Assembly (NCBI RefSeq): GCF_006974105.1
Contig: NZ_CP036282.1
Span: 558,001-622,000 of the forward strand
From: Rhodoferax aquaticus
GTDB lineage: Bacteria; Pseudomonadota; Gammaproteobacteria; Burkholderiales; Burkholderiaceae_C
Length of the DNA: 64,000 nt
Direction of reading: 5' to 3'
Positions 18,180 to 37,884 of this stretch are shown here, one piece after another (within the stretch, counting starts at the first letter, position 1; each line of letters begins with the position of its first letter). The translations under genes and the position numbers were made by a program. The notes beneath the pieces are model-generated. The model was not told where the DNA came from and made no database searches. It saw nothing but the letters and a program-made list of their open reading frames with translations.

Positions 18180-18193
18180 GCCCTGAGGTGCGT

Positions 18194-18955: not shown

Positions 18956-19005
18956 TTCAACCGCTAGCCACTGGGGTTTTTGAGACGCCACGGCGCGTTT
19001 TTTGA

Positions 19006-19363: not shown

Positions 19364-19413
19364 TAAAGACCCCGCCGCCCCGCCAAACCCTCACCGATGA
19401 ACGCAAGCTGCTG

Positions 19414-19575: not shown

Positions 19576-19684
19576 GGTGCAGAGTCAGGGTGGGTTTGAG
19601 CGCCATCAAGGCATGCGCAAAGTGTGGGGCGCTATTGTCCACCGGGCGTTGTGCGCAGGCGCCTGCACGCCGCACAATCCAACC

Positions 19685-21217
19685 ATGCAACACATCACGC
19701 GTTTGAATCCCCACACATTGCCCCTGCATGGCGTGGCCGCGAGCCGCAATTTGGAGCAACAAGCCGCAGCGCTGCTGCCCGCGCACACCCTCATGCAGCG
19801 CGCAGGCCTGTCGGTGGCACGCCTGGCCTTGGCTATGGCGCCGCATGCGCGCACCATCTGGATTGCCTGCGGGCCGGGCAACAACGGGGGCGATGGTTTT
19901 GAGGCTGCCGTGCATCTGCACCAATGGGGCAAAACGGTGCACCTCACCTGGACGGGCTTGGGGCCCACGCAAGCCGCACTGCCACCCGACGCCCGGGCCG
20001 CTCGCGACAAAGCCTTGGCTGCGGGCGTGCCCATGGTGAACGAGCCGCCAGCGCAGTTTGACCTGTGCATCGACGCCCTCTTGGGCCTAGGGGGCCGGCT
20101 AGACGCCAGCCGAGCGGGCAATGCGCTGATGTTGGACTGGCTGGCCCGCATGCAGGCCAGCGGCGCACCCCGCCTGTCGGTAGACCTGCCCACGGGGCTG
20201 GATGCGGATACGGGTGTTGCTTCGGATTTAATAGCTGCTTGCGCAGTATCCACGGGTGCTACAGCCCACTTTACCTTGAGTTTGCTGTCGCTCAAGCCCG
20301 GCCTGTTCACCGCGCAGGGCCGTGACCATGCAGGCCAGGTGTGGTTTGACGACCTGGGCGCAGGTGCCCTCTTGGGCGAGGCGGTGGGCAGCAGTGCCAA
20401 CGCTTGGCTTTTGGGTGCAGACCAAGGCGGCACAGTGTCCAAGTTGACCCAGGCCCACGCCAGCCACAAAGGCAGTTTTGGCGACGTTGCCGTGCTGGGC
20501 GGCGAGTCCACAGCAACTAGCCACATGGCAGGTGCAGCCCTCTTGGCGGCGCGTGCAGCCTTGCACGCCGGGGCAGGGCGGGTGTACGTGGCGCTGCTGG
20601 GCAGCCCCGCCGTGTCGGTGGACCTGCTGCAACCCGAACTCATGTTTCGCAACATTGCCGCGGTGGACTTGGCCCACAGCGTGGTGGTCTGCGGCTGTGG
20701 CGGCGGCACGCTGGTGGCCGGTGTGTTGCCCAAGGTCTTGCAAGAAGCCCCGCGCCTGTTGCTAGACGCCGACGCACTCAACGCCATTGCGCAAGACGCA
20801 GCCGTACAAACTTTGCTGACCGAGCGCCACGTGCGGGGCTGGGCCACCGTGCTCACGCCCCACCCCTTAGAAGCAGCACGCCTCTTAGGAACCAGCGCCG
20901 CCTCAGTGCAAGCGCAGCGCCTGGGCAGCGCGCAAACCTTGGCTGAGCGCTTTGCCTGCGTAGTCGTGCTCAAAGGGTCTGGCAGCATCATTGCCGCACC
21001 AGGCCTTGTGCCACGCATCAACCCCACAGGCAATGCCCTCTTGGCCACCGCAGGCACGGGTGATGTGCTGGCTGGCATGGTGGGCGCAGCCATCGCCCGG
21101 GGCCAAAGCGCCCACGCCGCCGCCTGCAGCGCTGTGTATGCGCATGGCCAGGTAGCCGATGTGTGGGCAGAGCAGCGTGGGGAAAGGGCGCTGACGGCGT
21201 CTGGAATGTGGGGCTAG
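19685..21217 (+). CDS. nnrD: Bifunctional NAD(P)H-hydrate epimerase/ADP-dependent dehydratase
   Basis: Repairs hydrated NAD(P)H. The N-terminal YjeF_N/NnrE epimerase domain (about residues 1-215) has WIACGPGNNGGDGFEAAVHL and SVDLPTGLDADTGVA. The C-terminal ribokinase-like NnrD dehydratase domain has HKGSFGDVAVLGG, LLLDADALNAIAQ, VLTPHPLEAARLLG, VVLKGSGSIIAAP and NPTGNALLATAGTGDVLAGMVGA. The start at 19685 gives 510 residues, the usual length. One dispersed repeat (20226-20263) is translated within the joint between the domains (SDLIAACAVSTGATA). Confidence 0.94.
   Translation: MQHITRLNPHTLPLHGVAASRNLEQQAAALLPAHTLMQRAGLSVARLALAMAPHARTIWIACGPGNNGGDGFEAAVHLHQWGKTVHLTWTGLGPTQAALPPDARAARDKALAAGVPMVNEPPAQFDLCIDALLGLGGRLDASRAGNALMLDWLARMQASGAPRLSVDLPTGLDADTGVASDLIAACAVSTGATAHFTLSLLSLKPGLFTAQGRDHAGQVWFDDLGAGALLGEAVGSSANAWLLGADQGGTVSKLTQAHASHKGSFGDVAVLGGESTATSHMAGAALLAARAALHAGAGRVYVALLGSPAVSVDLLQPELMFRNIAAVDLAHSVVVCGCGGGTLVAGVLPKVLQEAPRLLLDADALNAIAQDAAVQTLLTERHVRGWATVLTPHPLEAARLLGTSAASVQAQRLGSAQTLAERFACVVVLKGSGSIIAAPGLVPRINPTGNALLATAGTGDVLAGMVGAAIARGQSAHAAACSAVYAHGQVADVWAEQRGERALTASGMWG
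20226..20263 (+). repeat. Dispersed short repeat inside nnrDE
   Basis: TTTAATAGCTGCTTGCGCA followed by a partly complementary tail (GGTGCTACAG) sits in frame between the two enzyme domains. It is the same core as in leuS, proA and after aotJ. Confidence 0.55.
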
Positions 21218-21221
21218 GCCA

Positions 21222-21707
21222 ATGGATGGATTAAGTGTCCTAGAGCCCCACACCATTCACCGCCTGAGCAGCCCCCAGGCGTCCGACCTGCAGACCATCC
21301 ATGCGGTGCAAATGCTGGCCTACCAGCAAGAGGCGCAGCTACTGGGCGCCCAAGACTTTCCACCGCTGCGCAGCACGGTGGAAGACCTAGCGCAGTCGGG
21401 CCAGCTGTTTTGGGTAGCGCGCATAGCCTCCCAAACCGTAGGCGCCATGCGTTTAGAAGTGGACGCACAAGCGCAAACGGTGTGCATCGCGTCTTTGGTC
21501 GTCCACCCCCAAGCGCAACGCAGTGGCATTGGGCATGGCTTATTAGGCGCGGCATTGGCCTATGCGCCCAACTACGTGTTTGAAGTGCAAACCGGTGCCG
21601 CCAATGCGCCAGCGTTAGCGCTCTATGCGCGGTGCGGTTTTAAAGAAATCCACCGCCACTGCGTAGGCCCCGAGCGCTTGGAGTTGGTGCGACTGCGCTT
21701 GCGCTGA
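21222..21707 (+). CDS. GNAT family N-acetyltransferase
   Basis: A 161-residue acetyltransferase with the GNAT fold: the acetyl-CoA binding motif A reads IASLVVHPQAQRSGIGHGLLGAAL (the Q/RxxGxG/A loop as QRSGIG). A typical end follows (FEVQTGAANAPALALYARCGFKEI). The start lies 4 bp after the nnrDE stop, so the two are probably co-transcribed. The substrate cannot be told. Confidence 0.88.
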   Translation: MDGLSVLEPHTIHRLSSPQASDLQTIHAVQMLAYQQEAQLLGAQDFPPLRSTVEDLAQSGQLFWVARIASQTVGAMRLEVDAQAQTVCIASLVVHPQAQRSGIGHGLLGAALAYAPNYVFEVQTGAANAPALALYARCGFKEIHRHCVGPERLELVRLRLR

Positions 21708-21896: not shown

Positions 21897-22427
21897 TTAC
21901 AGCAAATGCGCTAGAAGGTAAGACAACCGAGCCCCTGCTTTGGCCGTGGAGTCGAGGTCGACCACGTCAATTTCACCGGCAAATTCCTGGCTGCTGTTCA
22001 GTACGTCCGCGTCGGCGGAAATGGCAACTTGCAGATTGCGCCGCAAACGAAACGCCAGCACGCTGGCCACAGCCATGTAAAAGCGAGCGGCGAATGCGGT
22101 GTCAGACTGCAGCTTTTCCTGCAAAACATCTTCTTCCAGCACGGCCACCACCACATCGGTTTCGGCGCAAATGCGCGCAGTGGTCTTGCGCCGGTCCACA
22201 AAGCTGATCTCGCCCATCATGTCGCCGGGGCTCAAGGTGTCCAGCAGTCGGCCATCGGCCGCGAACACCTGGCAACGTCCTTGCAATAACAGGCTGATTT
22301 TCCGGTTGGCTCTGCCGCATTCGACAAGGGTTGTACCCGCCGCGAAGCTGGCTTTGCGACAGGCTTGGTGAATCCAGGCCACATCGTCCTCGTCCAGATT
22401 CTCAAAAATAATCAGAGAAGAGCGCAT
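21897..22427 (-). CDS. Stand-alone cyclic-nucleotide-binding-fold protein in the export operon
   Basis: A 176-residue Crp-like sensory domain (FAAGTTLVECGRANRKISLLLQGRCQVFAADGRLLDTLSPGDMMGEISFVD...). A C-terminal extension of about 60 residues follows, with no helix-turn-helix. The phosphate-binding cassette reads GEISFVDRRKTTARI: the Glu is present but the Arg expected two residues before the Ala is Thr, so normal cAMP/cGMP binding is doubtful. It is the last gene of the operon, 6 bp after the second ABC gene. In HetC-like peptidase ABC exporters such a domain is fused to the transporter, so a regulatory role on the exporter is a reasonable inference. Confidence 0.82.
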   Translation of the reverse strand: MRSSLIIFENLDEDDVAWIHQACRKASFAAGTTLVECGRANRKISLLLQGRCQVFAADGRLLDTLSPGDMMGEISFVDRRKTTARICAETDVVVAVLEEDVLQEKLQSDTAFAARFYMAVASVLAFRLRRNLQVAISADADVLNSSQEFAGEIDVVDLDSTAKAGARLSYLLAHLL

Positions 22428-22433
22428 CGTTGA

Positions 22434-24596
22434 TCAAGCCTTTCCGTGCAACATGTTTTTAAATGACCCTGCCGAAGTAGCCAGCTGGTCATAGCTGCCC
22501 TCTTGGGTAATGGTGCCGCGATCCATCACAATGATGCGGTCACAATTTTTGAGGGTTCCCAGACGGTGGGTGAAAACAATGCGAGTGATCGCCAGTTGGT
22601 CTAGCACTGCACCCACTTTACCCACACTCACGTTGTCCAGCGCGCTGGTAGCCTCATCAAATATCAGCAGCCGCGGGCCACCGACCAGTGCGCGCGCCAG
22701 CGCCATCAACTGATTTTGACCACCAGAGAAAAGGCTGGTGTTTTCTCCAATCACGGTATGAATTCCCATGGGCAGGGATTTCACAAAACCTGCCATGCCA
22801 ATGGTCTCAAGTGTTTTGAGCACCTGGTCCACATCCAGGTCCCGACCCGCTGTGATGTTCTCCAAAATAGAACCAGCGAACATGCGGTGATCTTGCAACA
22901 CCACACCAAAGGTCTTTCGCACCGCCTCCACATTGACGTTTGAGAGGTCATTGCGGTCTATGAACACCTTGCCATTGTTGGGGGACAGCAGGCCCAAGAA
23001 GAGCCGCACCAAGGTGGACTTTCCGCAACCTGACGGCCCCACAATTCCAATGTACTCACCTGGCGCTATCCGCATTGAAAAGTTCGTCAAGATCAGTGGC
23101 TGCTCGTCGCCGTACTTGAAGTCAACACCTTGCAATTCAATCTCACCACGAATTTCGGGCAGCTTTTTGCGACCGGAAACCGATTCTGGAACCTCTGTGC
23201 GCAAAGGCAGAGACATCGCCACGGAAGTGACCAGATTGAAATACGCCAATACGGTGGCGGCCATGCCAGCCACACTGCCCGTAACAATGGAAACCGACGC
23301 CACGAAGGACACATATTCGCCTATGGATTCTGGTGCCGCTGTGGTGGTGGAGTAAGTCACGATGGAAAACACCGCGCACAGAGTGAGTAGGCTCAGCGAC
23401 TGCTGAAACGCTGCATACATATCGCCATAACGCGTGCTGCGTACTTGCCTGCGCCGCATTTCAATAAAGTTGTCACGCCAGCGCATAAACGCACGCCGCT
23501 GCGCGGCAAACATGCGGATGGGCAACATATTGGCGATCAGCTCATAGACAATGGTCAGCACATTGGCAGTCATCGCCTCGCCTTCAGCGTAAGCAGCCCG
23601 GCTCAAACTCCCCAGAAAAAAGGCCACGCTCAAATTGAGCACCGCTACGCCCAACACCGCCAATGCACCCACCGGGTAGTAATACGTGAGAGCTCCTAAG
23701 CCCACCAAGAAAGTGATCAGGTCCATGCAGGTTTTCACCAGCATGCGCAAGGTGGATCGCCTTGCACCTTCCATGGCCGTGAAGCGTCGCATCAGGTCCG
23801 CTTTGTTGTAGCCGGATAAAAACTTCATCGGCAAGCGAAAAAGCCGGTCCAAAAACGCTGCCTGCAGATCGGTCCCCGCGGCTCCTTCAATGCGCTGCAC
23901 AATCATCTCGGATGTCCAGCGCAAAGACAGCATCAATACATTGCAGACGACCACCACGGCCACCACGGCAAACAGCAAGGTCTCATTGCGGTGCGGCACC
24001 GCATGGTCAATCACCAGACCGCTGGCGACGGGAACAACGTAGGTCAGTGAGGCAATCACCAGCGTTAAGGCGAGATAAATCCACAACTCAAAATGGTAGG
24101 GCTTGAGCACCAGGCTCAGAATGTCCTTGAATTCCAGGCTTGAGTCAGGTAAGCCTGCATACAGCGCAGTGGCCTGGGTTTCGAGGCCAGCGGCAGCGTC
24201 CTGCGTCAGGGGCTTGAAACCCGTCGTGTAGCCTTCGCTGGCAAATTCCATCGCCGTGCGACCACGACACGAACGCACCAACACCGGATTACCGCTTGCC
24301 GTGTCACGGCATATCAGGGTACCGTGGTCTGACTCCCACCAAGAACCGACCAGAGTGACCTCGCGTGCATTCAGGCCCAAGGCATAGGCCACTTCCGCCG
24401 CTTCGCTATCAGGCCCAAACCCGCCGCGTATTGGGTTGCCCGTGAGTCCCATGGCTTTTGCAGCGCTCTGGCAGGCAGCAAAAACGTCGCCCATGGGGTG
24501 CTTGCGAACGGGTTGACGCACGTCACTGGACAGCAACTCTTCAAACTGGCGCAGCGTCTCTTCCACTGACGGAAGTGCAGTGTTCACAGCTTTCAC
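22434..24596 (-). CDS. ABC exporter with N-terminal extension (NHLM-type second ABC protein)
   Basis: A 720-residue inner-membrane ABC protein resembling the NHLM bacteriocin-system ABC2 subunit. The first roughly 170 residues are a soluble, non-peptidase domain (GDVFAACQSAAKAMGL, LVGSWWESDHGTLIC). An exporter membrane domain follows (from about residue 175, ELWIYLALTLVIASLTYVVPVASGLVID). The ATPase domain has Walker A GPSGCGKST near residue 521, signature SLFSGGQNQLMALARAL, Walker B LLIFDEATSALD and His in VFTHRLG. It overlaps the peptidase ABC gene by 4 bp, so the two are translationally coupled and probably form a heterodimer. Confidence 0.88.
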   Translation of the reverse strand: MKAVNTALPSVEETLRQFEELLSSDVRQPVRKHPMGDVFAACQSAAKAMGLTGNPIRGGFGPDSEAAEVAYALGLNAREVTLVGSWWESDHGTLICRDTASGNPVLVRSCRGRTAMEFASEGYTTGFKPLTQDAAAGLETQATALYAGLPDSSLEFKDILSLVLKPYHFELWIYLALTLVIASLTYVVPVASGLVIDHAVPHRNETLLFAVVAVVVVCNVLMLSLRWTSEMIVQRIEGAAGTDLQAAFLDRLFRLPMKFLSGYNKADLMRRFTAMEGARRSTLRMLVKTCMDLITFLVGLGALTYYYPVGALAVLGVAVLNLSVAFFLGSLSRAAYAEGEAMTANVLTIVYELIANMLPIRMFAAQRRAFMRWRDNFIEMRRRQVRSTRYGDMYAAFQQSLSLLTLCAVFSIVTYSTTTAAPESIGEYVSFVASVSIVTGSVAGMAATVLAYFNLVTSVAMSLPLRTEVPESVSGRKKLPEIRGEIELQGVDFKYGDEQPLILTNFSMRIAPGEYIGIVGPSGCGKSTLVRLFLGLLSPNNGKVFIDRNDLSNVNVEAVRKTFGVVLQDHRMFAGSILENITAGRDLDVDQVLKTLETIGMAGFVKSLPMGIHTVIGENTSLFSGGQNQLMALARALVGGPRLLIFDEATSALDNVSVGKVGAVLDQLAITRIVFTHRLGTLKNCDRIIVMDRGTITQEGSYDQLATSAGSFKNMLHGKA

Positions 24597-26776
24597 AATA
24601 CCGCCCCCTGGCTGGCAGCCACCAGCTGTGAATACATGCCGGCTGACTGCATCAATTCTTCGTGGGAACCAGACTCCTTGACAGCACCCCTGTCGACAAC
24701 AACGATCTTTTCAGCCAGGCGCATCGTGCCAATACGGTGGGTAGCAAAAACAATGGTGCTGATCTTGGCGCGCAGGTTTTCAAGAACGGCGGCTTCATTG
24801 GCACCATCCAATGCAGAGGTGGCCTCGTCCAAAATCAGAATGGCGGGTTTGCGCACCACCGCTCGGGCCAACGCAAGGCGCTGGCGTTGGCCACCGCTCA
24901 AGTCGGAGCCACCTTCGCGTAAGCGCGCCTTGTAGCCACCGGCCCGGCGCATGATGTCCTCGTGGATCATGCAGGCTTTGCAAGCATCCATGGCTTGCTC
25001 CTCGGTGATGGCCGGATCCCACATGCTCAGGTTTTCCAACACCGTGCCTTCAAAAATCTGGTCCTTCTGCGGCACAAACGCGACCACCGAACTCAGGTGC
25101 GCGGAATCGATGGTGCGGATGTCCTTGCCGCCCACGGTCACTTCCCCGCTGACGGGCTTCAGGACACGCGCCATCACGCCCAACAAGGTGGACTTGCCGC
25201 TTCCCACAGAGCCGACAACGCCCACAAAGCTACCCGGCGACACTTGGAGCGAAATGCCCTTGAGCACGGGGCTTGCGCCGTAGTCAAAATGCACATTGCT
25301 AACCAGCAACTCTGACGATTCAGGCAACCCCTGTGTGGCCGCGAACTCTTCTTCTGAAGCCACTTGCAGCAAATCATTCACCCGGTCAAAACTGCCGCTC
25401 GACGCGCTGATCTGGGCGAATCCCGAGACGATCTGGTTGAACGGAGTGATCAGCAAATAGGCCATGGCGGTGTAGGCCACAAACACCCCGATGGTGAACA
25501 CGCCGTGCAAAACCTCTAGCGCCGACAGGCCTGTGATCACCGCCATCAGAATGCCCGTGATAGAACCTGGCAAGCTGGCCATCAGTGCGGTAAATGGCGC
25601 ATGCTTTTGCTCTGCATTGACCACAGCAATGTGTCGCTCCAGCACCCTTTGTCCCATGGCTGCCGATGACCCGGACGCCCGTGAATGCTCCATCAAATTG
25701 AACGCGGTGAGCACCTGTGACTCGTAACGTCCTCTCTCCAAAGCGAGTCGGCGGTCCAGATCATTGGTCTGCCTTGATATCCAACCCACGAGGGCTGCAT
25801 GCGCCGATAGCAGCAGGAACGAAACGGCCGTGAGATAGGGGCTGTAGCTTGCCATCATCAAGCCCACAACCAGCACCTGCATGGAGGCTGCGATCATGCT
25901 GACAAGTGCCCCCGAAACGGTGCCTGCAACGGCATCGGCCAACATAACCCGCCCGCCAATCTCTCCCCCGAAGCGCCTTGAAAAATACTCCATGGGCACA
26001 CTGAACATCTTGGCAACAATGCGCGTTGCCATGCTCAGGGCCAGCCATGTCTGCAACTTGAGCACGCCCACCCGCTGCATCCAGAGCACTGGGCCCAGCA
26101 GCAGGCCAAAAACACCAATCCCGAACATGAACCAGAACTTCCAACTGTCCACGCCCTTTTTGATCAGCACATAGTCGATAAAAATGGACGTCAAAGCGGG
26201 CACCAAGGCCATCAGCACCGCAAGACCGAATCCCACCAAGGCAATCGCTGAAATGGCACGCCCGGCTCCACGCGACGCGATCAACACTTCTGAGAGCGCC
26301 GAAGCGGGCTTGCCGGTGCGCACAAACCCTTCGCCGGGCTCCATGCACAAAGTCACACCGCAATAGCCCGCCTCCAAATCCGATTGCAACAAGCGTCTGC
26401 GCCCCACTGCAGGGTCTAGCACCGCTGCCACGCCGTCTTGCAGGCTTTCCAGAACCACAAAATGATTGAAGTTCCAGAAAATGATCTGTGGCATGGGCAA
26501 CTTGGCCAGCTCGGCAGCGCTCACGCCGAAGCCTTTGACGTTCAGGCCTGCCTGTTTAGCGGCACGCGCAAGGGAACCGGCAGAAATGCCGTCGCGGGTA
26601 GCGCCGCACATACCGCGCAGCTTGTCTAGCGACTCATAGCGGCCAAAGTAGGCCAAAACCATGCCCAGACAACAGGTGCCGCATTCGGTCGCCTCAAACT
26701 GCAATATCTCCGGCACCCTTCGCCGGAGCATGTTTTTCGACCAGCGCACAAGTGGCGCAGGCATCCCCAGCATCAT
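24593..26776 (-). CDS. Peptidase-containing ABC exporter (C39; NHLM-type first ABC protein)
   Basis: A 727-residue exporter that should trim double-glycine leaders while exporting the cargo. The C39 domain (about residues 20-150) has QFEATECGTCCLGM with oxyanion Gln 26 and catalytic Cys 32, His 105 in FWNFNHFVVLE and Asp 121 in VLDPAVG; the triad is complete. A membrane domain follows (AISAIALVGFGLAVLMALVPALTSIFIDYV). The ATPase has Walker A GSVGSGKST near residue 520, DLSGGQRQRLALARAVV, ILILDEATSALD and FATHRIGT. It overlaps both neighbours by 4 bp. The Cys being active and the adjacent GG-leader cargo argue for leader cleavage. Confidence 0.92.
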   Translation of the reverse strand: MMLGMPAPLVRWSKNMLRRRVPEILQFEATECGTCCLGMVLAYFGRYESLDKLRGMCGATRDGISAGSLARAAKQAGLNVKGFGVSAAELAKLPMPQIIFWNFNHFVVLESLQDGVAAVLDPAVGRRRLLQSDLEAGYCGVTLCMEPGEGFVRTGKPASALSEVLIASRGAGRAISAIALVGFGLAVLMALVPALTSIFIDYVLIKKGVDSWKFWFMFGIGVFGLLLGPVLWMQRVGVLKLQTWLALSMATRIVAKMFSVPMEYFSRRFGGEIGGRVMLADAVAGTVSGALVSMIAASMQVLVVGLMMASYSPYLTAVSFLLLSAHAALVGWISRQTNDLDRRLALERGRYESQVLTAFNLMEHSRASGSSAAMGQRVLERHIAVVNAEQKHAPFTALMASLPGSITGILMAVITGLSALEVLHGVFTIGVFVAYTAMAYLLITPFNQIVSGFAQISASSGSFDRVNDLLQVASEEEFAATQGLPESSELLVSNVHFDYGASPVLKGISLQVSPGSFVGVVGSVGSGKSTLLGVMARVLKPVSGEVTVGGKDIRTIDSAHLSSVVAFVPQKDQIFEGTVLENLSMWDPAITEEQAMDACKACMIHEDIMRRAGGYKARLREGGSDLSGGQRQRLALARAVVRKPAILILDEATSALDGANEAAVLENLRAKISTIVFATHRIGTMRLAEKIVVVDRGAVKESGSHEELMQSAGMYSQLVAASQGAVL

Positions 26777-28089
26777 GGCTTCGCACCCTCAGGCAAGGGT
26801 GTTGGCCCCGATGCCAAGGCGTTTGCATGGAACCAGGCACTTTCGCCCACGCGCTTCACAGCCGGCAAAAGGAGGTAGAGCAGGCGCGGCTGGTTGTAAA
26901 CGACACGACCCGAGACAATGGTGCCAGGCTCCATCAATCTGGCAGGCCCGCGAGACGATGTCCACGCCATCCCACTGGGAGTTTGCGCATCTTGGGTGAC
27001 CTGAACTGTGACTTTATAAGGCGCATCCGCCTCAAAAAGCTTGCGCACCAACTTCTGGTTTTTAAATACTCGCAGCAGAACGTCTTCATCGGCAGCAACG
27101 GCGCTGACCTGTGTCACCACTCCTTCAATACGCCCGAACTCTTGCTCTTCGTAGATGAGCGGGAGAATTTTGACCGGCATGCCAGGAGCGATTTTCTTGC
27201 CTTCTTGCGCTGGCACAAAGACCACGGCTGAGCGAACCACGTTGCTACTCGTTTTGACGCTGTTGGCAGGAGTGACCATCGCCACCCGTCTTTCACGGGA
27301 TACAGGTTGGTGCACATCGACCAGCAGTTCCGAGATCACACCGTCGTACGGCGAAACAATTCGGTTTTCCACCTTGGCGCGTTCAGTGAGTGCGTCAATC
27401 TGGCGCTGCTGGGCACTGATTTGCAGATTGAGTTCGAGAGACTCGCGCTTTTGGCGCTGTGCCAGTTCAGAGTAGTTGGTCTGTGCGTCCAGCAATTGGC
27501 GCTTGTTGACCGCCAGTTGGTCTTCCACCTGCTCACGCTCTGTCACCACTGGATCGGAGGCACGTGAGGAAAGAAAACCGCCAACTATCAATTCTGCGTT
27601 GCCTTGCCGGGTTTTCTCCAAGCGGCTGAGGCGCTCACGCAGTGCGCCATCCCGGCTACGGGATTCAATCTGCACTTGCTTGAAAGTACCCGTTGCTACC
27701 TCCATACTTTCGGCATGAAAGCTGTCCAAGCGCTTGGCCTTGGCCATGAGGTCTTGTAACGAACTGCGCGCTGTTTGCAAGTCGTTGTCCAGGCGCGGGA
27801 TACTCACGAGCGCGATCGTCTGGCCCTTCTTGACCGGGCTTCCCACTTTGACGAGAAACGCCTCCAAACGTCCGTCGGTTTCTGGCGAAATCGCGTAATT
27901 GATCACCTCACCATCGGCCATCAGCACACCCTGGCCATTGACCACCACCGGCACCCGCACCAAGAAGCAGCCAATCAGCAGCGCTAGAACACTGCCAACA
28001 AAAAGCCAAGCCGTTGCAAGGTACGCGGGGCTGACGATGTTGAGCGGACGCGTCGACTCCTTGTTGCTGGACTTTGAAGATTCAATCAT
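26773..28089 (-). CDS. HlyD/membrane-fusion secretion adaptor (NHLM-type)
   Basis: Periplasmic adaptor linking the ABC exporter to an outer-membrane channel. Of 438 residues, the N-terminus is cytosolic, with one membrane helix at about 26-48 (LATAWLFVGSVLALLIGCFLV). The lipoyl half-motif is GRLEAFLVKVGSPVKKGQTIALVSIPRLDNDL. A coiled-coil hairpin of about residues 85-230, rich in Gln/Arg/Glu, is followed by the return half-motif IVSPYDGVISELLVDVHQPVS and a beta-barrel end. It overlaps the peptidase exporter by 4 bp. No TolC-like gene is in the window, so an unlinked outer-membrane channel must be used. Confidence 0.88.
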   Translation of the reverse strand: MIESSKSSNKESTRPLNIVSPAYLATAWLFVGSVLALLIGCFLVRVPVVVNGQGVLMADGEVINYAISPETDGRLEAFLVKVGSPVKKGQTIALVSIPRLDNDLQTARSSLQDLMAKAKRLDSFHAESMEVATGTFKQVQIESRSRDGALRERLSRLEKTRQGNAELIVGGFLSSRASDPVVTEREQVEDQLAVNKRQLLDAQTNYSELAQRQKRESLELNLQISAQQRQIDALTERAKVENRIVSPYDGVISELLVDVHQPVSRERRVAMVTPANSVKTSSNVVRSAVVFVPAQEGKKIAPGMPVKILPLIYEEQEFGRIEGVVTQVSAVAADEDVLLRVFKNQKLVRKLFEADAPYKVTVQVTQDAQTPSGMAWTSSRGPARLMEPGTIVSGRVVYNQPRLLYLLLPAVKRVGESAWFHANALASGPTPLPEGAKP

Positions 28090-28281
28090 CGTGTTGAGGT
28101 CAATTTGGGGTGTAAGTCAATGGTCGGCGTGTTTCCAAGCATGGCATGAGCGCGTTAGCACTTGGCCAATTGTCCTCGTGATACGGCGAGCGCTGAGGTG
28201 ACTCGATGCTGCTTATCGACACACAAAGAGCACCTGAGTAGGGCACAGCAGGGGGGCCATTTGCTGTGCCAAGTAGGAAAC

Positions 28282-28300
28282 TATGAAGCTAAAGCTTCAA
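28282..28300. terminator. Weak stem-loop downstream of the giant gene
   Basis: TGAAGC-N4-GCTTCA, 6-bp stem with 4-nt loop, about 55 bp after the giant gene's stop and some 190 bp before the adaptor gene. The T run on the minus side is poor. It could lower readthrough so that the cargo is made in excess over the exporter. Confidence 0.3.
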
Positions 28301-28353
28301 ATCTTGCCACTTCCAGTTCTACATTGACCAAATTCCGTTTTGGATAGATGCGC

Positions 28354-31300
28354 TTATATTCCGAGCAATCCTCCGACAGCCTTCACCCCAGTATTTAAAC
28401 CTCCCAAGACAGCATTACCAACAGTATTCGCTGCATTTTTAGCACCTTGGGCAGCGGTACCGAGCGCCATTTCGACATCGTTCTTAAAGAATCCAGGAAC
28501 ATCGCTGCCCAAAAATCCCTTGGCAGAAAGGTATGCGGCGTTCACCTTGACCGTATCGATTTCGACGTCTACGTCAAACTTTAGGCCCAACAGCAAGGCA
28601 GCATCACCAGAGAGTCCAAATCCAACGACACCATCTTTGAATGTTGCGTGGCCTTCACCCCCAACTCCGACTTGGGTTCCTACGGAAACACCGCCAGCAA
28701 CGCCGCCCGCGATGACAGTCAGGTCCCCTGAAGCAGAGCCGTTGGCATCGGCCCCAGCGCCGGCGCGCAGAATGACCTCACCCGATGCCGACGCACCTTC
28801 ATTGGTGGCTGAAAGGCTTGCCGTGCCACCCGCTTCAGCGCCTACCCACACTCCACCGCCGGCACCCGTAACAAAGGAACCATAGCTAACGAGGGCAGCA
28901 GCTTCCACCTCCAATGCAGCCTTGATCCGCATCGCTTGGGTAAAGGCTGCGCCGTTTGGCCCAAATGAAAACTCACCGCTGACGAATACCTCTGCAATTG
29001 TTCTGGCCTCTGCCACACTGTATAGACTCAAATCGCCCAGCTTGACAGTGCCGTCAGCCTGAACTTCAGCCTGAAAGTTGACACCTCGTGCGCCGGTAAT
29101 TTTGATGGAATTGCCGTTGATTTGAATTGAACCCTCTGCAAATGCATTGGCGTCAACTGTTGCGCCCGCGCTGCTTTTAAAGGTGATGCCTCCCAGAGTC
29201 GCACCGGCTGACGTGTCGGTGCCAACGCCCCACGTAATATCGGTTTCAGTCGACTCATCGACCGCCGTGAGTTGGGCAGGAGTCAGTGCGGCAGCAAGGT
29301 GAGAGGTTTTGAGCAAGACCGCTTGGGCCGACCCTAGAGCATCGATTTGCGATAGGCTCAGTGCCTTCACTGCGGCCGGGCTCAAAGCAGTTATTTCATC
29401 CCCAAGGGTCCTGAGCTGCGCACCCGACAAGCTGCCAACTTGGGCTGGACTCAGCGCAGTTACCTGCTTTGCGTCCAGGCTACCGATGGCATCGTAGCGC
29501 AAGCAACTGATTTTGGTACCTAAGGCAGTTACTTGCTCTGGGGAGAGTGCATCGACTTGATTTGCATTGAGTGCCCCCAACGCTGATGGTGTCAAACCGC
29601 CGATGAAGTTACCCAGTTTGGCAATGTCACCCATGCTCATGGTCCTAACGTCCGCTGCCGAGTAGCTCCCCATGATTGCGACAGAGCTTAGGAAAGCAGC
29701 CTTGCTGCCCAGTGCCTGTACTTGCTGCGCTGTCATTGCCGCGATCTGCTCGCCGCTAAGGCTGGTCACCGCAGCCGCATTGAGGTCCTGAATGTGCTTG
29801 CCCATCGCCGTGATTTGCGCTGGTTTGAAGAGGTCCACCTGGCCGGGGCTCAGGTGCGACACAACCTCGGCAGTGATGGCCTGCATTTGTGTCGCATTCA
29901 ACAGTCCAACGGCTTGCGGCGTGATGGCTGAAAACTGGGCGAAATCCAGACTCGCAATAGCGCTAGCCGAGAGATGCGCCACCTTGCTGTCCAAGGCCGC
30001 AATCTGGTTGACCGTTAGAAAATCAACCTGCGCATCGCCCAAACCACCCAAACCTTGGGCAGAAAGGTTTGCAATGCGCACACCAAGTTCCCGACATTGC
30101 TGACGCGTTAGCCCTTTTATCTGTTCGCCGTCCAAGCTGCCCAAGGCTTCTGGCGCCAGTGAGACGATGCGTGCCCCCAATTGATTCAACTGATTTGCAG
30201 CCAACCCATCCACCTGCTGTCCATCCAGACTTGCAAGGGCAGCATCACTCAGATTCTTGATGAGAACGGGACCCAGCGCGGCGAGCTGGGCGGCACTGAG
30301 GCCAACGGCCTGCAAGCCATCCAAGCTTGCCAATGCTGTCGGTGCCAGAAACCCAATATTGGCGCCCAGGGCTTTCACCTGTGCGGCGCTCAGGGCGTCT
30401 ATATCCGTTGCACTCAGGTTAGCAAGTGCTCCAGGTGAGAGGCTGGCAATCTTGACACCCAGCGCGGTGATTTGCACTGCGCTCATGGCGTCCACCTGTA
30501 TGGCATCCAAGCTGGAAAGCGCTGCGCCTGTCAGATCAGCAATTTTGCTCCCCAGAGCAGTTACTTGCGAGGGTGTCAGCCCATCCACTTGCTTGGCGTC
30601 TAGGCTGGCGAGCGCAGCCGGTGCGAGGTTGGCGATTTTGCCGCCTAAAGCCGCAACTTGAGCGGCGCTCAAGAAATCGACTTGGTTAGCGTCCAGGCTG
30701 GCCAAGGCTGATGGTGCAAGGCCGACGATGTTGTTACCTTGTGTGGTGACCTGCAGGGCACTCAACCCAGCGATTTCAGGTACCCCAATCACGCCAACTT
30801 GGCCAGCGCCCAGTACGTTCGGCCTAGTCGCAACTAACTCGGCAAGAACCGCTGAGTCCAGATGGGCAATGTTGTCGCTGAGTGCCAAGACTTGCGCGGC
30901 ACTCATCCAGCTCACCTGTGAACCGTTTAAACTGGTCAGTGCACTAGGCACTAAGTTAACAATTTTGTTACCGAGCGCAGCAAGCTGCGAGCCCGTGAGC
31001 CCGTCGACTTGCGTGGCATCAAGACTCGCCAGCGCGGCCGGCACAATGCTCGCGATGTTTGCGCCCAGTGCGCCAACCTGTGTGGCACTCAACCCCTTGA
31101 CCTGCTCGGCGTCCAAAGTGGCAAGTGCTGCCGGCGCCATCCATTGAATCTTAGTTCCCAGCGATGAAATCTGTCCAGCGCTCAAAGCATCAACCTGTGA
31201 CGGACTCATTGACTGGACCTGAGGCACCGTCAGACCAATGAACCGGCTAGCATCGAGACTTGCAAGCACCGCAGGCGCAAGGTTGACAATGCTGCTGCCG

Positions 31301-34300
31301 AATGCTGTTATCTGCTCCGCGCTCAGCGACTTTACCTGTGTAACGTCCAAGCTGGCAATGGCATCCGGTGCCAGCATTCCAACTTTATTGCCAAGTGCTG
31401 TGATCTGCGCGGCACTCAGACAGGCCACTTGCCCTGCATCCAGGCTGGTAAGTGCAGTACCGCTCAGAGCGGCAATTTTATTGTCGAGGGCCACAATTTG
31501 CGCAGCGTTCAGCCCATCGACCTGAGTGCCATCCAATTTGGCAAGTGCCCCTGGTGTGAGGTTGGCAATGTTGGTTCCCAGAGCTGTGACCTGCGCAGCG
31601 CCCAAAAGAACGACCTGATTGGCATCAGGGACGCCATCGTAAATCCCGATGCCTGCAGATTGAATTGATCTTTTTTGCGCATCGCTCACTGCATTTCGTG
31701 CAACCAAACCGGCAAGTACTGTCGGATCCAGGTCAACAATTCGACTGCCCAGCGCCCGTAGTTGCGGAATAATCAATTCGCCAACTTGCTTTGCGTCCAG
31801 ACTGGCAAGTGCCACTGGCGCCAGGTTGACAATCTTTTCGTTCATATATGTCAACTGAATGGGGCTCAGCTCATTCACCTGTTCACCATCCAAGGTAGCT
31901 AGCGCCGCCGGAGAGAGCAATCTAAAGTTATTTCCCATCCCCGCGATTTGCTTAGCACTCAAGGCATCGACCTGATGGACAGTCAGTGCCGCCACCTGCT
32001 GCCCATTGAGCATGTCAAACCATGATGCATCAAGCCCGGCGAGTGCAACCGGGTCCAGCGAAGCCACGTTGTTGCCCAACATATTCACTTGCCGATGCCC
32101 CAGCGACCCAATTTGGGTAGCGCTGAGGCCAGCAAATACTGCTGGTGCTAGGTCGAATAGTTTTATGTCCAGCGCTTTAATCTGTGCAACGCTAAGGGCA
32201 TTGACTTGTTTGGCATCTAACGTAGCGAGGGCTTCCGCGGCCATTCCACCGATCGCATTCCCTAGCAACGAAACCTGCGCAGGGCTCAGTTTGTCGACTT
32301 GCTCAGGGCTCAGAACATAGATCTGTGTAGGCGCCAATGCGCTGAATTGTGTTGCATTCAGACCGCTAAGTGCACTAGGCGAGAGGTTGACAATATTGTC
32401 GCCCAACGCCTTGATCTGCCCCAATGTGAGTCCCGCGGCCTGGGTGGAGTCCAGACTTCCCAAAGCTTCTCGCGTGAATTCGAGGAAGAGCCCAGTACTA
32501 AAAAGCTTAATCTGATCGGCAGTCAATCCGTCGACCTGTGCGGCATCTAAGCTGGCAATTGCTTTCGGCGAAAGCAGGGCAATTTTTGACCCCAGAGCCG
32601 TAACTTGTTGTGCGCTCAATTCATCAAGTTGATTAGGAGTTAGAAATCGAACTGCCAGATCAGGCAATTCCTTTATGTCTCCGCCTAGCACCGAGATCTG
32701 GGCAGCGGTCAGACCGGCGACCTGACCGCCATCGATACCACTCAAGGCTGAAGCGCTCAGCACGCCAATTCGATCGCCCAAGGCCGTTAATTGCGCCGGT
32801 TTGAGATACATCTGATGGGCGCCAATGCTGGCCAGCAAGGCTGGTGGCCAATCCACTGCATTTTGGGCAACGGCACTGCCCGACATGCCACGCACCATTA
32901 ATGTCGCCGGATCCTGAAGTGCTCCGATTTTGGTGCCAAGGCTCTCCACTTGCGCCAGGGTCAGGGCCCGAGTCTGCGCTTCATTAAAGCTGCCCAGTGC
33001 GCCAGGCTGCAGCGCAGCGACATTGGTTCCTAACGCAATGACTTGGGCTGGGCTCAATCCATCAACCTGGTTTGCGTCCAGGCTGGCCAGTGCCGCCGGG
33101 TTGAGGCTGGCGATGTTATTGCCCAACGCAGTCACTTGGGCTGGGCTCAATGCATCAACCCGGTTTGCGTCCAGGCTGGCCAATGCCGCCGGGGTGAGGC
33201 TGGCGATGTTGTTGCCCAAGGCAGTCACTTGGGCTGCTGTCAGGCCATCAATTTGTGTTCCAACCAAGCTGCCAAGTACGTTTGGATTGAGTTCTGCAAA
33301 CTTGGCGCCCAACGCAGTCACCTGGGCGGCAGTTAAACCGGCAACTTGTCTGGCGTCTAGGCTGACAAGTGCCGCCGGTGCCAACGCATTGATTTTTTCA
33401 CCCAGAAAGGTTACTTGGGTTGCACTCAATTTATCGAGTTGGGTTGCATCCAGACTGGCAAGCGCTTCTGGGGTCAGGGCTTGGATTTTTGCGCCTAGAT
33501 CATAAACTTGATAGGCCCTCAGGCCGTCCACTTGGCTTGCGTCCAGACTAGCAAGTGCATCTGGGGTCAGCTCCCTGATGGCATGACCTAGCAAAGAGAT
33601 CTGCGCAACCGTCAGTCCATTGACTTGGGCTGCGTCAAGGCTTGCAACCGCTGCGGGTCTCAGATACTGAATATTTTGGCCAAGCGCCGCTACCTGCGCC
33701 TCACTGAGGTTATCGATTTGTTGGGCGCTCAGTGCACTGACTTGCTTGGCGTCCAGACTGAAAATTGCTTCGGGTGTCAGCGCTTTAACTCTTTCACCAA
33801 GTGCCAAGACCTGACTGGCGCTTAGGCCGTCCACTTGTTTGGCATCCAGACTGCCCACCGCGGCTGCGCTGAGCATCCCCACTTTGTCGCCCAATGCTGT
33901 GATTTGCTTGGCCGTCAAGCCATCAACTTGCAGATGATCTAGGCTAGCAATGGCAGAGGGGGCTAAGAATCTGATGTTCGCACCCAGGCTGGCTACTTGC
34001 ACACCCGTCAACCCATCGACTTGGGCGGCATCCAGACTCGCAACGGCATCCGGTACCAAGAATTTCACCTTTTCGCCGAGCGCAGTGATTTGGGTAGCAC
34101 CAAGGGCGTCAACCTGTTTGGCATCCAAGCTGCCCACAGTGGCAGCGCTGAGCGCCCCCACTTTGTCGCCCAAAGCTGCCAACTGCTCAGGCTTGAAGGC
34201 ATCGATCTGAGCGGCGCTGATACTGGCAACCCAAGCTGGCGGCCAATTGGCGGCACGTCTCGCAACATCGTCGCCCTTCATTTTGCTGACCTCGAGGGTT

Positions 34301-35739
34301 CCCCAGTCTTGGAGTGCACCAATATTGGTGCCTAGGCTTACCACCTGAGGCAGCGTGAGCGCCCGGACCTGCTCATCGTTGAAGCTGCCTAGCGCCTCCG
34401 GTGTCAGGACTGAAACATTGGTACCCAGCGCTGTAACTTGCTTGGCACTCAAGCCATCGACTTGCTTAGCGTCCAAACTGGCTATGGCTTCTGGTGCCAA
34501 ATACTTGATGTTTTCTCGTAAGGAACCAATCTGAGAACGGGCTAATCCATCAACCTGAGTAGCGTCGAAACTTGCAAGAGCCGCAGGTGCCAGTTCTTGG
34601 ACTAAAGGGCCAAGAGCACTGACTTGGGCTGCAGTAAGACCGTCGATCTGGGGTGCGTCAAGGCTTGCAATAGCAGCTGGGGCCAAAGCCGCGATATTCG
34701 CGCCCAAAGCAGTGATTTGGGCTGCCGTTAGACCGTCTACTTGAGACGCGTCCAAGCTTCGGACAGCACTGCGCGTTAGCGCCCCAATGTCGCTGCCCAA
34801 TGCTGTGACCTGGGCGGCCGTCAGACCGTCGATTTGCCGAGCATCTAGGCTGCCCACAGCAGAAGCGCTGAGCGCACCCACACGGTCGCCTAGTGCGGCT
34901 AACTGCGCCGGTGTAAAGCTGTCAATTTGGCTTGCGCTGATATTGGCCACCATGGCAGGCGACCAATTCGCCGCACTATTGGCCGCGTCACTGCCCGACA
35001 TGCCGCGCACCCGGAGTGATGCCGGATCTTGCAGGGCTGTAATGTTGCTACCAAGGGCTTCCACTTGCGCCAGCGTTAGAGCGCTTGCCTGCGCTTCGTT
35101 GAAACTACCCAGTGCGGCCGGTGTCAGCGCAGCAACATGGACATCCAATGCGGTGATTTGCTTGGCGCTCAAACCATCGATTTGCACTGCGTCTAGACTG
35201 CCTAACGCTTGCGGAACCAAGTTGGCAATGTTATTGCCCAACAGGGATATCTGGGTGGCAGTGAGCCCATCCACCTGCCTTGCATCTAGGCTGCGCAGCG
35301 CTTCGGGTGCGAGGTGCACAATATTGCCGCCCAAGAGCGTTATCTGATGGGCAGTGAGTCCATTAGCCTGGTAGGCATCTATGCTTCCCAAAGCCTCTGG
35401 GGCCAGTGCCGCAATGCCGTCGCCTAAGGCAGTGATTTGTCTGTCAATGAGTTTGTCTAACTGGGTGGCACTAATGCTGTGAATAGCTTCATCGCGCAGT
35501 AAGGACACTGCATCGCCCAAGCCTTTCAACTTATCGCCACTGAACTTATCCATTCCCGAGGCCGTCAAATCCTTCGCTATTTCCTCTGCCATTGCATTGG
35601 CTGCAGCCACTTCGGCAGGGTTGTCCGATTCATTTTTTTTGCCTCCCAGGCCGCCAACCACTTGGTCCAACGTTTCTAAAGACAACTCAGCGGGAGCGGC
35701 ATTCTTTGCTGATTCTTGAAATTTAACCTTCTTTAACAT
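28354..35739 (-). CDS. Giant 31-residue-repeat protein with double-glycine leader (exporter cargo)
   Basis: A 2461-residue protein, not a family I recognise. Residues 1-30 form a double-glycine leader: ELSLETLDQVVGG has L(-12), S(-11), L(-7), V(-4), G(-2), G(-1) before a cut after Gly 30, and a second GG follows at 32-33. From about 60 to 2155 it consists of roughly 65 copies of a 31-residue unit, typified by LDAxQVDGLTAAQVTALG followed by xxIxxLxPxALAS. The unit is rich in Leu/Ala/Gln and is probably a two-helix solenoid repeat. Three copies are replaced by a variant with MSGSDAAN or similar. The last roughly 300 residues are Gly/Ala-rich, with short beta-like stretches, and end in GNAVLGGLNTGVKAVGGLLG. 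There are no RTX repeats and no classical signal peptide. It has its own ribosome site (AAGGA) and lies upstream of HlyD/C39-ABC/ABC on the same strand, which makes it their likely cargo. Confidence 0.88.
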   Translation of the reverse strand: MLKKVKFQESAKNAAPAELSLETLDQVVGGLGGKKNESDNPAEVAAANAMAEEIAKDLTASGMDKFSGDKLKGLGDAVSLLRDEAIHSISATQLDKLIDRQITALGDGIAALAPEALGSIDAYQANGLTAHQITLLGGNIVHLAPEALRSLDARQVDGLTATQISLLGNNIANLVPQALGSLDAVQIDGLSAKQITALDVHVAALTPAALGSFNEAQASALTLAQVEALGSNITALQDPASLRVRGMSGSDAANSAANWSPAMVANISASQIDSFTPAQLAALGDRVGALSASAVGSLDARQIDGLTAAQVTALGSDIGALTRSAVRSLDASQVDGLTAAQITALGANIAALAPAAIASLDAPQIDGLTAAQVSALGPLVQELAPAALASFDATQVDGLARSQIGSLRENIKYLAPEAIASLDAKQVDGLSAKQVTALGTNVSVLTPEALGSFNDEQVRALTLPQVVSLGTNIGALQDWGTLEVSKMKGDDVARRAANWPPAWVASISAAQIDAFKPEQLAALGDKVGALSAATVGSLDAKQVDALGATQITALGEKVKFLVPDAVASLDAAQVDGLTGVQVASLGANIRFLAPSAIASLDHLQVDGLTAKQITALGDKVGMLSAAAVGSLDAKQVDGLSASQVLALGERVKALTPEAIFSLDAKQVSALSAQQIDNLSEAQVAALGQNIQYLRPAAVASLDAAQVNGLTVAQISLLGHAIRELTPDALASLDASQVDGLRAYQVYDLGAKIQALTPEALASLDATQLDKLSATQVTFLGEKINALAPAALVSLDARQVAGLTAAQVTALGAKFAELNPNVLGSLVGTQIDGLTAAQVTALGNNIASLTPAALASLDANRVDALSPAQVTALGNNIASLNPAALASLDANQVDGLSPAQVIALGTNVAALQPGALGSFNEAQTRALTLAQVESLGTKIGALQDPATLMVRGMSGSAVAQNAVDWPPALLASIGAHQMYLKPAQLTALGDRIGVLSASALSGIDGGQVAGLTAAQISVLGGDIKELPDLAVRFLTPNQLDELSAQQVTALGSKIALLSPKAIASLDAAQVDGLTADQIKLFSTGLFLEFTREALGSLDSTQAAGLTLGQIKALGDNIVNLSPSALSGLNATQFSALAPTQIYVLSPEQVDKLSPAQVSLLGNAIGGMAAEALATLDAKQVNALSVAQIKALDIKLFDLAPAVFAGLSATQIGSLGHRQVNMLGNNVASLDPVALAGLDASWFDMLNGQQVAALTVHQVDALSAKQIAGMGNNFRLLSPAALATLDGEQVNELSPIQLTYMNEKIVNLAPVALASLDAKQVGELIIPQLRALGSRIVDLDPTVLAGLVARNAVSDAQKRSIQSAGIGIYDGVPDANQVVLLGAAQVTALGTNIANLTPGALAKLDGTQVDGLNAAQIVALDNKIAALSGTALTSLDAGQVACLSAAQITALGNKVGMLAPDAIASLDVTQVKSLSAEQITAFGSSIVNLAPAVLASLDASRFIGLTVPQVQSMSPSQVDALSAGQISSLGTKIQWMAPAALATLDAEQVKGLSATQVGALGANIASIVPAALASLDATQVDGLTGSQLAALGNKIVNLVPSALTSLNGSQVSWMSAAQVLALSDNIAHLDSAVLAELVATRPNVLGAGQVGVIGVPEIAGLSALQVTTQGNNIVGLAPSALASLDANQVDFLSAAQVAALGGKIANLAPAALASLDAKQVDGLTPSQVTALGSKIADLTGAALSSLDAIQVDAMSAVQITALGVKIASLSPGALANLSATDIDALSAAQVKALGANIGFLAPTALASLDGLQAVGLSAAQLAALGPVLIKNLSDAALASLDGQQVDGLAANQLNQLGARIVSLAPEALGSLDGEQIKGLTRQQCRELGVRIANLSAQGLGGLGDAQVDFLTVNQIAALDSKVAHLSASAIASLDFAQFSAITPQAVGLLNATQMQAITAEVVSHLSPGQVDLFKPAQITAMGKHIQDLNAAAVTSLSGEQIAAMTAQQVQALGSKAAFLSSVAIMGSYSAADVRTMSMGDIAKLGNFIGGLTPSALGALNANQVDALSPEQVTALGTKISCLRYDAIGSLDAKQVTALSPAQVGSLSGAQLRTLGDEITALSPAAVKALSLSQIDALGSAQAVLLKTSHLAAALTPAQLTAVDESTETDITWGVGTDTSAGATLGGITFKSSAGATVDANAFAEGSIQINGNSIKITGARGVNFQAEVQADGTVKLGDLSLYSVAEARTIAEVFVSGEFSFGPNGAAFTQAMRIKAALEVEAAALVSYGSFVTGAGGGVWVGAEAGGTASLSATNEGASASGEVILRAGAGADANGSASGDLTVIAGGVAGGVSVGTQVGVGGEGHATFKDGVVGFGLSGDAALLLGLKFDVDVEIDTVKVNAAYLSAKGFLGSDVPGFFKNDVEMALGTAAQGAKNAANTVGNAVLGGLNTGVKAVGGLLGI
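33041..33226 (-). repeat. Two near-identical adjacent 93-bp units within the giant gene
   Basis: The 93-bp unit at 33041-33133 and its neighbour at 33134-33226 differ at about 6 positions. Most other units in the gene are similar only at protein level. This marks a recent tandem duplication. Confidence 0.75.
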
Positions 35740-36469: not shown

Positions 36470-37222
36470 ATGCAAATCCAAGCCACCGAAGTTGACCTGT
36501 CCACCCCCACCGGGCCTATGCGGTGCTATGTCTATCGCCCTAAGTCAGACGTTGGCACGGCACCCAAGCAGTACCCGGCGTTGATCTTGTACTCTGAGAT
36601 TTTTCAGCAAACGGGGCCTATCCGTCGCAGTGCGCAAATCATGGCGGGGCATGGCTTTATTGTGCTGGTGCCAGAGGTGTTTCATGAGCTCAACCCAGCA
36701 GGCACGGTGTTGGCGTATGACGATGCGGGGCGCGACAAGGGCAATGCCGACAAAGTGGCAAAGACCTTGGAGGCCCATGACAGCGACACCCAAGCCATGG
36801 TGGACTATGTGCGCAGCTTGCCAGACTACGCTGGCAAGCTCGGGGCCATGGGCTTTTGCTTAGGGGGCGGTTTGGCTTATCGCGCGGCGCTGCACCCGGC
36901 GGTGCTGGCCACGTCTTGCTTTTACGCCACGGACATCCATTCCGGCATGGTGCCCTCACAGGCAGGCAACTCGAGCTTGGAGCGCACCGGTGAGATACGG
37001 GGTGAATTGCAAATGGTGTGGGGCAAGCAAGACCCCCATATTCCGCCAGAAGGCCGTGCGCTGGTGTACCAGCGTTTGAGCGCCCACAAGGTGAACTTTA
37101 CATGGCACGAGTTCAATGGTGTGCACGCCTTTATGCGTGACGAGGGCGAGCGCTACGACCCTGAGCTGCAGCTCTTGGGCTACCAACTGGCCATTGGTTT
37201 GTTCAAGCGCGTTTTGGGCTAA
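36470..37222 (+). CDS. Dienelactone hydrolase family protein
   Basis: A 250-residue alpha/beta hydrolase of the DLH type (cytosolic, no signal). The triad expected for DLH is visible: Cys 130 in AMGFCLGGGLAY, Asp 188 in WGKQDPHIP, His 219 in FNGVHAFMRD. The Glu that pairs with the Cys is at about 43 (LILYSEIFQ). It probably hydrolyses a lactone or ester; no ring-cleavage genes are nearby, so the substrate is open. It is convergent with the Crp/Fnr-type regulator at 37235, 12 bp apart. Confidence 0.88.
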   Translation: MQIQATEVDLSTPTGPMRCYVYRPKSDVGTAPKQYPALILYSEIFQQTGPIRRSAQIMAGHGFIVLVPEVFHELNPAGTVLAYDDAGRDKGNADKVAKTLEAHDSDTQAMVDYVRSLPDYAGKLGAMGFCLGGGLAYRAALHPAVLATSCFYATDIHSGMVPSQAGNSSLERTGEIRGELQMVWGKQDPHIPPEGRALVYQRLSAHKVNFTWHEFNGVHAFMRDEGERYDPELQLLGYQLAIGLFKRVLG

Positions 37223-37234
37223 GCCGGTTGTTGC

Positions 37235-37858
37235 TTACGCGCCCAGCCCACGGCGCACCCGCACCACGATGCGGTTGAGTCCCACGGGCGTAAGGCCCAG
37301 GTGGCGCGCCAGGTCTTTTTGTGGAATGCGCTGCTCTAGCTCCGGGTGGGCGTCTCTGAATGCGATGTAGCGCGGCTCGGGGCTCAGAGTGAGGAGTTCA
37401 CGCTCGCGCTGCTCTTTGCGTGCGGCAAACACCATGGTCAGGGCGTGCAGAGCGCGTGACCAAGGCAAGTGGGTAGAGGCCAGTTCGTAGAGCAAGCGGT
37501 AGTCCACTTGCTCCACCGTGCAAGGCTCCAGCGCGATCACCATAAAGCTGGTGCGCCCACGTGGTTCTAGCGCTGCAATGCTGGCAAAAAAGCGACCCTC
37601 TTGGGCGAAAGACTTGATCCATTCGTCACCCTCTTCACCAAGGTAGCTGAGCTTGAGTAAACCACTGCGCACGCCATACACATAGGGGTGCGCGACATCT
37701 TGCAAAAACACGGTGCCGCCGGTTTCAAAGTGACGTATTTGCATGGCGCTTTGTACGCGCTCCCACTGTGGCAGCGGGCCGCCAGCGGCGGTTTCTAGCA
37801 GGGTTTTGAGGACTTGGTCTGCCGTGGGTGGGCGATTAACTTGGGTTAATGACGGCAT
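37235..37858 (-). CDS. Crp/Fnr family transcriptional regulator
   Basis: A 207-residue regulator with an N-terminal cyclic-nucleotide-like domain (IRHFETGGTVFLQDVAHPYVYGVRSGLLKLSYLGEEG). The C-terminal winged helix is IPQKDLARHLGLTPVGLNRIVVRVRRGLG. No Fnr-type cysteine cluster is seen at the N-terminus. A 16-bp palindrome ATTAAC-N4-GTTAAT overlaps its first codons and lies 35 bp from the divergent SDR gene, suggesting control of itself and that gene. Confidence 0.86.
   Translation of the reverse strand: MPSLTQVNRPPTADQVLKTLLETAAGGPLPQWERVQSAMQIRHFETGGTVFLQDVAHPYVYGVRSGLLKLSYLGEEGDEWIKSFAQEGRFFASIAALEPRGRTSFMVIALEPCTVEQVDYRLLYELASTHLPWSRALHALTMVFAARKEQRERELLTLSPEPRYIAFRDAHPELEQRIPQKDLARHLGLTPVGLNRIVVRVRRGLGA
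37835..37850. promoter_or_regulatory. Crp/Fnr-like palindrome ATTAACTTGGGTTAAT
   Basis: Perfect 6-bp arms with a 4-bp spacer, the geometry of Fnr/Crp sites. It overlaps codons 3-8 of the regulator and is 35 bp upstream of the SDR start, a good place for autoregulation and divergent control. Confidence 0.5.
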
Positions 37859-37884
37859 GGTGGGGCGGCTCTACAGTGCGCTTC

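Follow-up and report, generated by a model that had tools for sequence, protein, structure and literature searches.

A minus-strand locus of Rhodoferax aquaticus probably serves the type I export of a single giant repeat protein, which begins with a double-glycine leader and is encoded upstream of a HlyD-type adaptor and of an ABC exporter with an intact C39 peptidase. The locus lies in the window, that is, the whole 64,000-nucleotide stretch that was analysed, taken from a genome assembled as a single contig of 4.74 Mb. Its features, in window positions, are the following:

28354..35739, minus strand: giant gene, 2461 aa; predicted mature part after Gly30 of 2431 aa, 243 kDa
35650..35739, minus strand: double-glycine leader, residues 1-30 of the giant; leader profile 17.3 bits
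29263..35478, minus strand: repeat array, residues 88-2159 of the giant; PF20080, 487.2 bits, 66 profile matches
28357..29250, minus strand: Gly/Ala-rich C-terminal region, residues 2164-2461 of the giant; common to the relatives L009, L010 and L011
26773..28089, minus strand: HlyD-type adaptor, 438 aa; TIGR03794, 208.1 bits, cut-off 156.2
24593..26776, minus strand: ABC1, 727 aa, with C39 peptidase, membrane and ATPase domains by domain and family matches
26333..26713, minus strand: C39 peptidase domain of ABC1, residues 22-148; Pfam match
22434..24596, minus strand: ABC2, 720 aa, without peptidase domain; TIGR03797 is the best family, below its cut-off
21897..22427, minus strand: cNMP-fold protein, 176 aa; PF00027; TIGR03896, 96.8 bits, cut-off 161.05

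The five minus-strand ORFs for the giant, HlyD, ABC1, ABC2 and the cNMP protein were all recovered where the first-pass annotation had placed them. By their spacing, hlyD, ABC1, ABC2 and the cNMP gene, and these four only, are packed as tightly as one operon: neighbouring genes share 4 bp at both the hlyD-ABC1 and the ABC1-ABC2 junction, and the cNMP gene starts 6 bp after ABC2. The giant gene ends 264 bp before hlyD, with one weak terminator-like site in the gap (mean of 0.4 in shuffled sequences), and AAGGA is seen by eye about 7 bases upstream of its ATG. The earlier claim that a modifying enzyme is absent holds for positions 15410-21707 and 36470-45596, the only ranges annotated beyond the locus, in which none was seen. 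In eight same-genus regions of 20 kb compared for the insertion site, identity of the YjeF gene is about 51-54%; none of the remaining 14 flank genes was detected, save for a weak generic ABC match in two of the eight. On plasmids, the best exporter match reaches only 35%. Upstream of the giant gene, at a distance of 1.5 kb, lies a gene for another cNMP-binding protein, similar in size to a Crp/Fnr regulator (window:37235-37858, minus strand). PADLOC matches fall in the ATPase and cNMP parts of the locus, and a defence-gene reading was not adopted.

The exporter genes had been described as matching the known NHLM set, and this description stands for HlyD, which passes the curated cut-off of its family. 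It does not stand for ABC1 (626.0 against 853.3 bits for TIGR03796), ABC2 (543.7 against 709.4 bits for TIGR03797) or the cNMP protein, all of which fall below their cut-offs, although TIGR03796 and TIGR03797 are still the best families for the two ABC proteins; the TIGR03796-type proteins of the relatives L010 and G336 score 629.1 and 568.5 bits. On its sequence, the exporter is thus NHLM-like, and strict NHLM membership is too strong a claim. Like the NHLM/NHLP exporter (TIGR03794, TIGR03796, TIGR03797; PMC2887384), it combines a HlyD, a C39-bearing ABC protein and an ABC protein without C39; unlike it, with its short modified precursors, the locus presents a giant, along with ABC1 and ABC2 scores under the cut-offs. 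As proposed earlier, the C39 catalytic residues of ABC1 are intact (Q26, C32, H105 and D121; Pfam E 1e-30 for the domain), and they are identical in all five members of the exporter lineage described below, while ABC2 has no C39 match in Pfam at E ≤ 0.1. The genome also holds 12 outer-membrane-efflux matches, which are candidates for the channel.

The leader of the giant, ELSLETLDQVVGG, has Leu at -12, Ser at -11, Leu at -7 and Val at -4, with Gly-Gly at residues 29-30. It fits the preference reported for NHLM/NHLP leaders at positions 1, 2, 3, 7 and 10 and is without the acidic residues reported at positions 4 and 6 (Haft 2010, PMC2887384). ORFs of at most 200 aa at the exporter loci L012-L088 supplied 99 distinct leaders, each of 20 residues, for a leader profile, and ORFs of at least 60 aa were scored with it over their first 80 residues. 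The giant ranks first of 361 window ORFs, the next one reaching 5.3 bits and the best of 3282 control ORFs 6.7 bits, and the giant of L010 scores 13.1 bits. The training leaders were chosen by a strict pattern, which the profile restates, and the weight of these scores lies in the comparison with other ORFs; on that comparison, the double-glycine leader of the first-pass annotation is borne out, and the resemblance is not due to chance. When residues 1-75 were searched against a protein database, none of 307 candidates matched at E ≤ 10. The giant of L010 was missed as well, and the database may therefore lack the lineage.

The strict pattern itself finds only the giant in the 64 kb of the window, on both strands, in agreement with the earlier statement that no second small leader gene is present; no short precursor of the NHLP/Nif11 type occurs near the exporter. 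It is very unlikely that the exporter instead serves a small leader peptide encoded elsewhere, with the giant as a mere neighbour or a second cargo. Short cargo is the rule at comparable loci, as 119 of the 123 ORFs matched by the strict pattern at 95 exporter loci have fewer than 60 aa after the Gly-Gly (two others have 60-150, one has 152, and L010 has 1771), and the leader scan of the organism's own genome was confined to the window. Against this stand the lack of any other leader ORF in the window and a repeat ORF linked to the exporter in all five lineage members.

Other unusual leader-bearing ORFs were noticed in these scans. The ORF L049:15147-15725 (plus strand; 192 aa, 152 of them after the Gly-Gly) has a leader score of 22.1 bits, the best of 1850 ORFs of at least 150 aa at exporter loci. 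Short double-glycine-leader peptides with a repeated cargo motif, KLEKITVTAKR, are encoded at L182:7964-8200, L184:1564-1953, L186:14201-14557 and L188:7343-7729; we take the motif to recall the TonB-box region of TonB-dependent receptors. In a member of the same genus as the window, the product of L179:10249-12006 (minus strand) has up to 585 aa and a start resembling a double-glycine leader; its gene lies directly upstream of those for a HlyD and for a C39 exporter that belongs to another branch. The protein's leader profile score of 3.5-5.0 bits lies below that of the best control ORF, and it is perhaps a second oversized cargo.

Close relatives of the exporter are few. Among the best 80 of 349 relatives taken from a scan of genome contigs, three are 74, 64 and 62% identical and the others at most 35%; 103 same-genus genomes yielded one more, 58% identical, and 399 genomes of the order held no other closer than 37%. 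The window and these four relatives (L009, L010, L011 and G336) form one clade with a support of 100, by a quick method that gave long-branch warnings, and the clade is a lineage of its own in the exporter tree. All four relatives are metagenome or draft assemblies, and three are cut by contig ends. In all five members, a repeat-type ORF lies upstream of hlyD on the same strand: directly so in the window and in G336 (79 bp), and at about 1, 3 and 7 kb in L009, L010 and L011, where accessory genes lie between. The ORF is complete in the window and in L010 (1801 aa), open at the 5′ end in L009 (1851 aa), and of 376 aa with the C-terminal region in L011; that of G336 is of 178 aa, without the C-terminal region, and its repeats score 20.3 bits, where the best of 1000 shuffled sequences reaches 7.7. 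The leader is readable in two of the five, the window and L010, since contig ends conceal the start in the other three. At the distant exporter loci L012-L088, several of them on short contigs, a repeat ORF was found at E ≤ 1e-3 in none of 77.

The intervening genes of L009, L010 and L011 include one of SnoaL type, accompanied by an FAD-oxidase gene in L010; in L011, glycosyltransferase and aminotransferase genes are among the additional ones. The stretches L009:5671-6129, L010:5978-6858 and L011:1212-2128, between giant and exporter, encode the SnoaL-type protein together with a further small protein that has no known family; the window and G336 have neither at this position. The small protein of L010 and L011 was considered as an NHLP precursor and found no NCBIfam support.

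Given the leader score and the linkage of a repeat ORF in five of five lineage members against none of 77 distant loci, the reading of the giant as the exporter's cargo, put forward in the first-pass annotation, is well supported at the level of sequence and gene context, the window holding no other leader ORF. That a leader-like start and an exporter became neighbours by chance is most improbable in view of the leader scores against controls and the fivefold linkage. The one point in its favor is that the repeats themselves weakly resemble the leader: among 34 repeat homologues, one totals 10.7 and one 7.6 bits because of this slight resemblance, and for the same reason confidence in the cargo reading was trimmed slightly. 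These totals are sums of small pieces, the best single one scoring 5.3 bits, and the corresponding best pieces of the window and L010 giants score 15.9 and 10.4 bits.

The repeats of the giant belong to PF20080 (ALTTAQ), far above the Pfam gathering cut-off of 26.4 bits, with units mostly of 31 aa, a period of 31, and the 66 matches counted at a permissive profile threshold. A 209-residue segment was modeled as all-helical, with four short helices per unit and a mean pLDDT of 92.3, and the array is modeled as an alpha-solenoid. By sequence, HeliScrew4 (9zem, E 9e-9) is the closest chain of solved structure; no mention of it was found in the open-licence literature. Comparison of the model with the PDB placed mesothelin at the top (E 4e-4, TM 0.30-0.48), a match taken to show no more than membership in one broad helical-solenoid class. 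Among 7988 proteins scored, 34 matched the repeat region at E ≤ 0.001. Neither RTX repeats (PF00353, in Pfam) nor a short precursor family of the NHLP/Nif11 type was found in the giant.

The giant of the window has its C-terminal region in common with those of L009, L010 and L011, at 29-37% identity, and giants with this region were found only alongside this exporter. Elsewhere, one of 249 other family genomes gave a weak match of only 51 positions, none of 7991 long proteins scored matched at E ≤ 0.001, and the window's piece has no Pfam match at E ≤ 1 and no PDB sequence match. A likeness to the L179 protein (hhalign probability 32) was not accepted. The giant could be a contact-dependent antibacterial factor, a long rod holding a membrane-active Gly/Ala-rich end, although this role is unlikely: the giant matches no toxin family, no SnoaL-type gene lies beside it in the window, and the AlphaFold model of the C-terminal region, with a pLDDT of 38, is worthless. 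The SnoaL-type proteins near the giants of L009, L010 and L011 could, on the other hand, be protective partners. The Cdz exporter of Caulobacter, which offers a parallel, has a C39 domain. Its bacteriocin-type export resembles that proposed here in that the protein may remain on the surface, glycine-zipper bacteriocin-like proteins being kept on the producer, and differs in that the Cdz products have 84-86 aa, compared with 2461 aa for the giant of the window (PMC5380434).

Repeat proteins of this kind also occur apart from the exporter. PF20080 is present in 69 of 250 family genomes and the TIGR03794 HlyD, at E ≤ 1e-25, in six; two genomes hold both, the window's own and G028, in which they lie on different contigs. 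In 40 kb fetched around 19 repeat arrays of other family genomes, each region holds at least one repeat ORF (33 in total), none has a match above 60 bits to the HlyD of the window, and none carries a leader on its repeat giants, 5.8 bits being the best profile score among the 33. Most of the complete ORFs start with MASLI or similar. According to the first-pass annotation, homologues found mostly without the exporter genes would speak against the cargo reading. The result is split: the repeat proteins do occur mostly without the exporter, but the 33 ORFs lack the leader, and giants with the C-terminal region keep to the exporter.

The leaderless ALTTAQ giants often stand two or more in a row, reach up to 4466 aa, and lie near LssB-type exporters in the regions of G077, G013, G021, G156, G159 and G056 (in L139-L160); the LssB gene of G013 precedes what appear by eye to be HlyD-like and outer-membrane-channel-like genes. 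LssB-type ATPases (TIGR03375, E ≤ 1e-190) were detected in 113 of 250 family genomes, with no match at this threshold in the window's own genome, and are present in 57 of 69 genomes with repeats against 56 of 181 without (Fisher p 1.3e-13, with relatedness ignored). An LssB gene lies within 35 kb of 21 of 30 mapped arrays, or 19 by the listed contigs; the higher count includes G160 and G182, in which the array is on another contig than the one listed, one that also holds LssB. Seven of the other mapped arrays have no LssB on their contig, and in two the distance to it is 66 and 433 kb. Of the 19 regions, six supplied an LssB protein each that passes the NCBI cut-off; in an alignment in which ABC1 and the exporters of L010 and G028 retain the catalytic Cys, His and Asp, none of these six proteins has them. 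From position, the leaderless giants appear to leave by LssB-type exporters. The LssB/LapB type (TIGR03375) thus resembles the system of the window in its nearness to giants of the same repeats and differs from it in the missing peptidase residues and leaderless cargo, as against an intact C39 and a leader.

Since the same-repeat proteins elsewhere are leaderless and near dead-peptidase LssB exporters, it is probable that this lineage, by acquiring a leader, shifted such cargo to an active-C39 exporter. The simplest account would be that type I export is the general route of repeat giants, with one lineage using an NHLM-like active-C39 exporter; the direction of the change, from the LssB type to active C39, is suggested by the rarity of the latter arrangement. 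The leader would dock on the C39 domain of ABC1 and be cut after Gly30, and the ABC1/ABC2 pair, HlyD and a TolC-type channel encoded elsewhere would thread 2431 residues out unfolded. Once outside the cell, the array would take the form of a long alpha-solenoid rod tipped by the C-terminal region. The protein would most likely act as an adhesive or contact factor, either held at the surface or shed; adhesion, matrix and contact-dependent action are candidate roles. The full switch, in which ALTTAQ rods gained a leader and all 2431 residues are both cut and threaded by the active-C39 two-ABC exporter, has about an even chance of being correct.

PCAT1 and CvaB, exporters with an active C39 domain, share with this system the C39 residues and the double-glycine leader, and their known cargo is of about 10 kDa or less, compared with 243 kDa here (PMC6959990; PMC8277102). 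In one known active-C39 mechanism, cargo is cut on entering a cavity that suits small peptides (PMC6959990); a cargo of 2431 residues is difficult to reconcile with this. The leader might instead dock the giant and remain uncut, or be cut late, the C39 domain acting mainly as a receptor like the dead domain of HlyB-type exporters and threading proceeding from the C-terminus. Known giant type I cargoes do use exporters with dead C39-like domains (PMC8277102), and giants of the same repeats lie near dead-domain LssB exporters in this family; yet Q, C, H and D are retained in all five lineage members and the Gly-Gly in both readable leaders, and an uncut or late-cut leader is very unlikely.

The preferred reading, export of the giant through the active-C39 pair, bears on a division drawn in a 2021 review, in which active-C39 exporters appear limited to cargo of about 10 kDa and dead-domain ones carry cargo above 50 kDa (PMC8277102). 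No paper using the word ALTTAQ was found in the open-licence literature, and there no title or abstract start concerning NHLM, C39, double-glycine leaders or giant adhesins describes this arrangement. What is new for the family is a probable LssB-type export route for leaderless ALTTAQ giants. A cargo of 243 kDa handled by an active-C39 exporter would break the division (PMC8277102), and whether cutting can be combined with the threading of thousands of residues becomes a testable question. If the reading is true, such peptide pumps handle far larger cargo than thought, and the size limit of active-C39 exporters would reflect the cargoes studied and not the machine.
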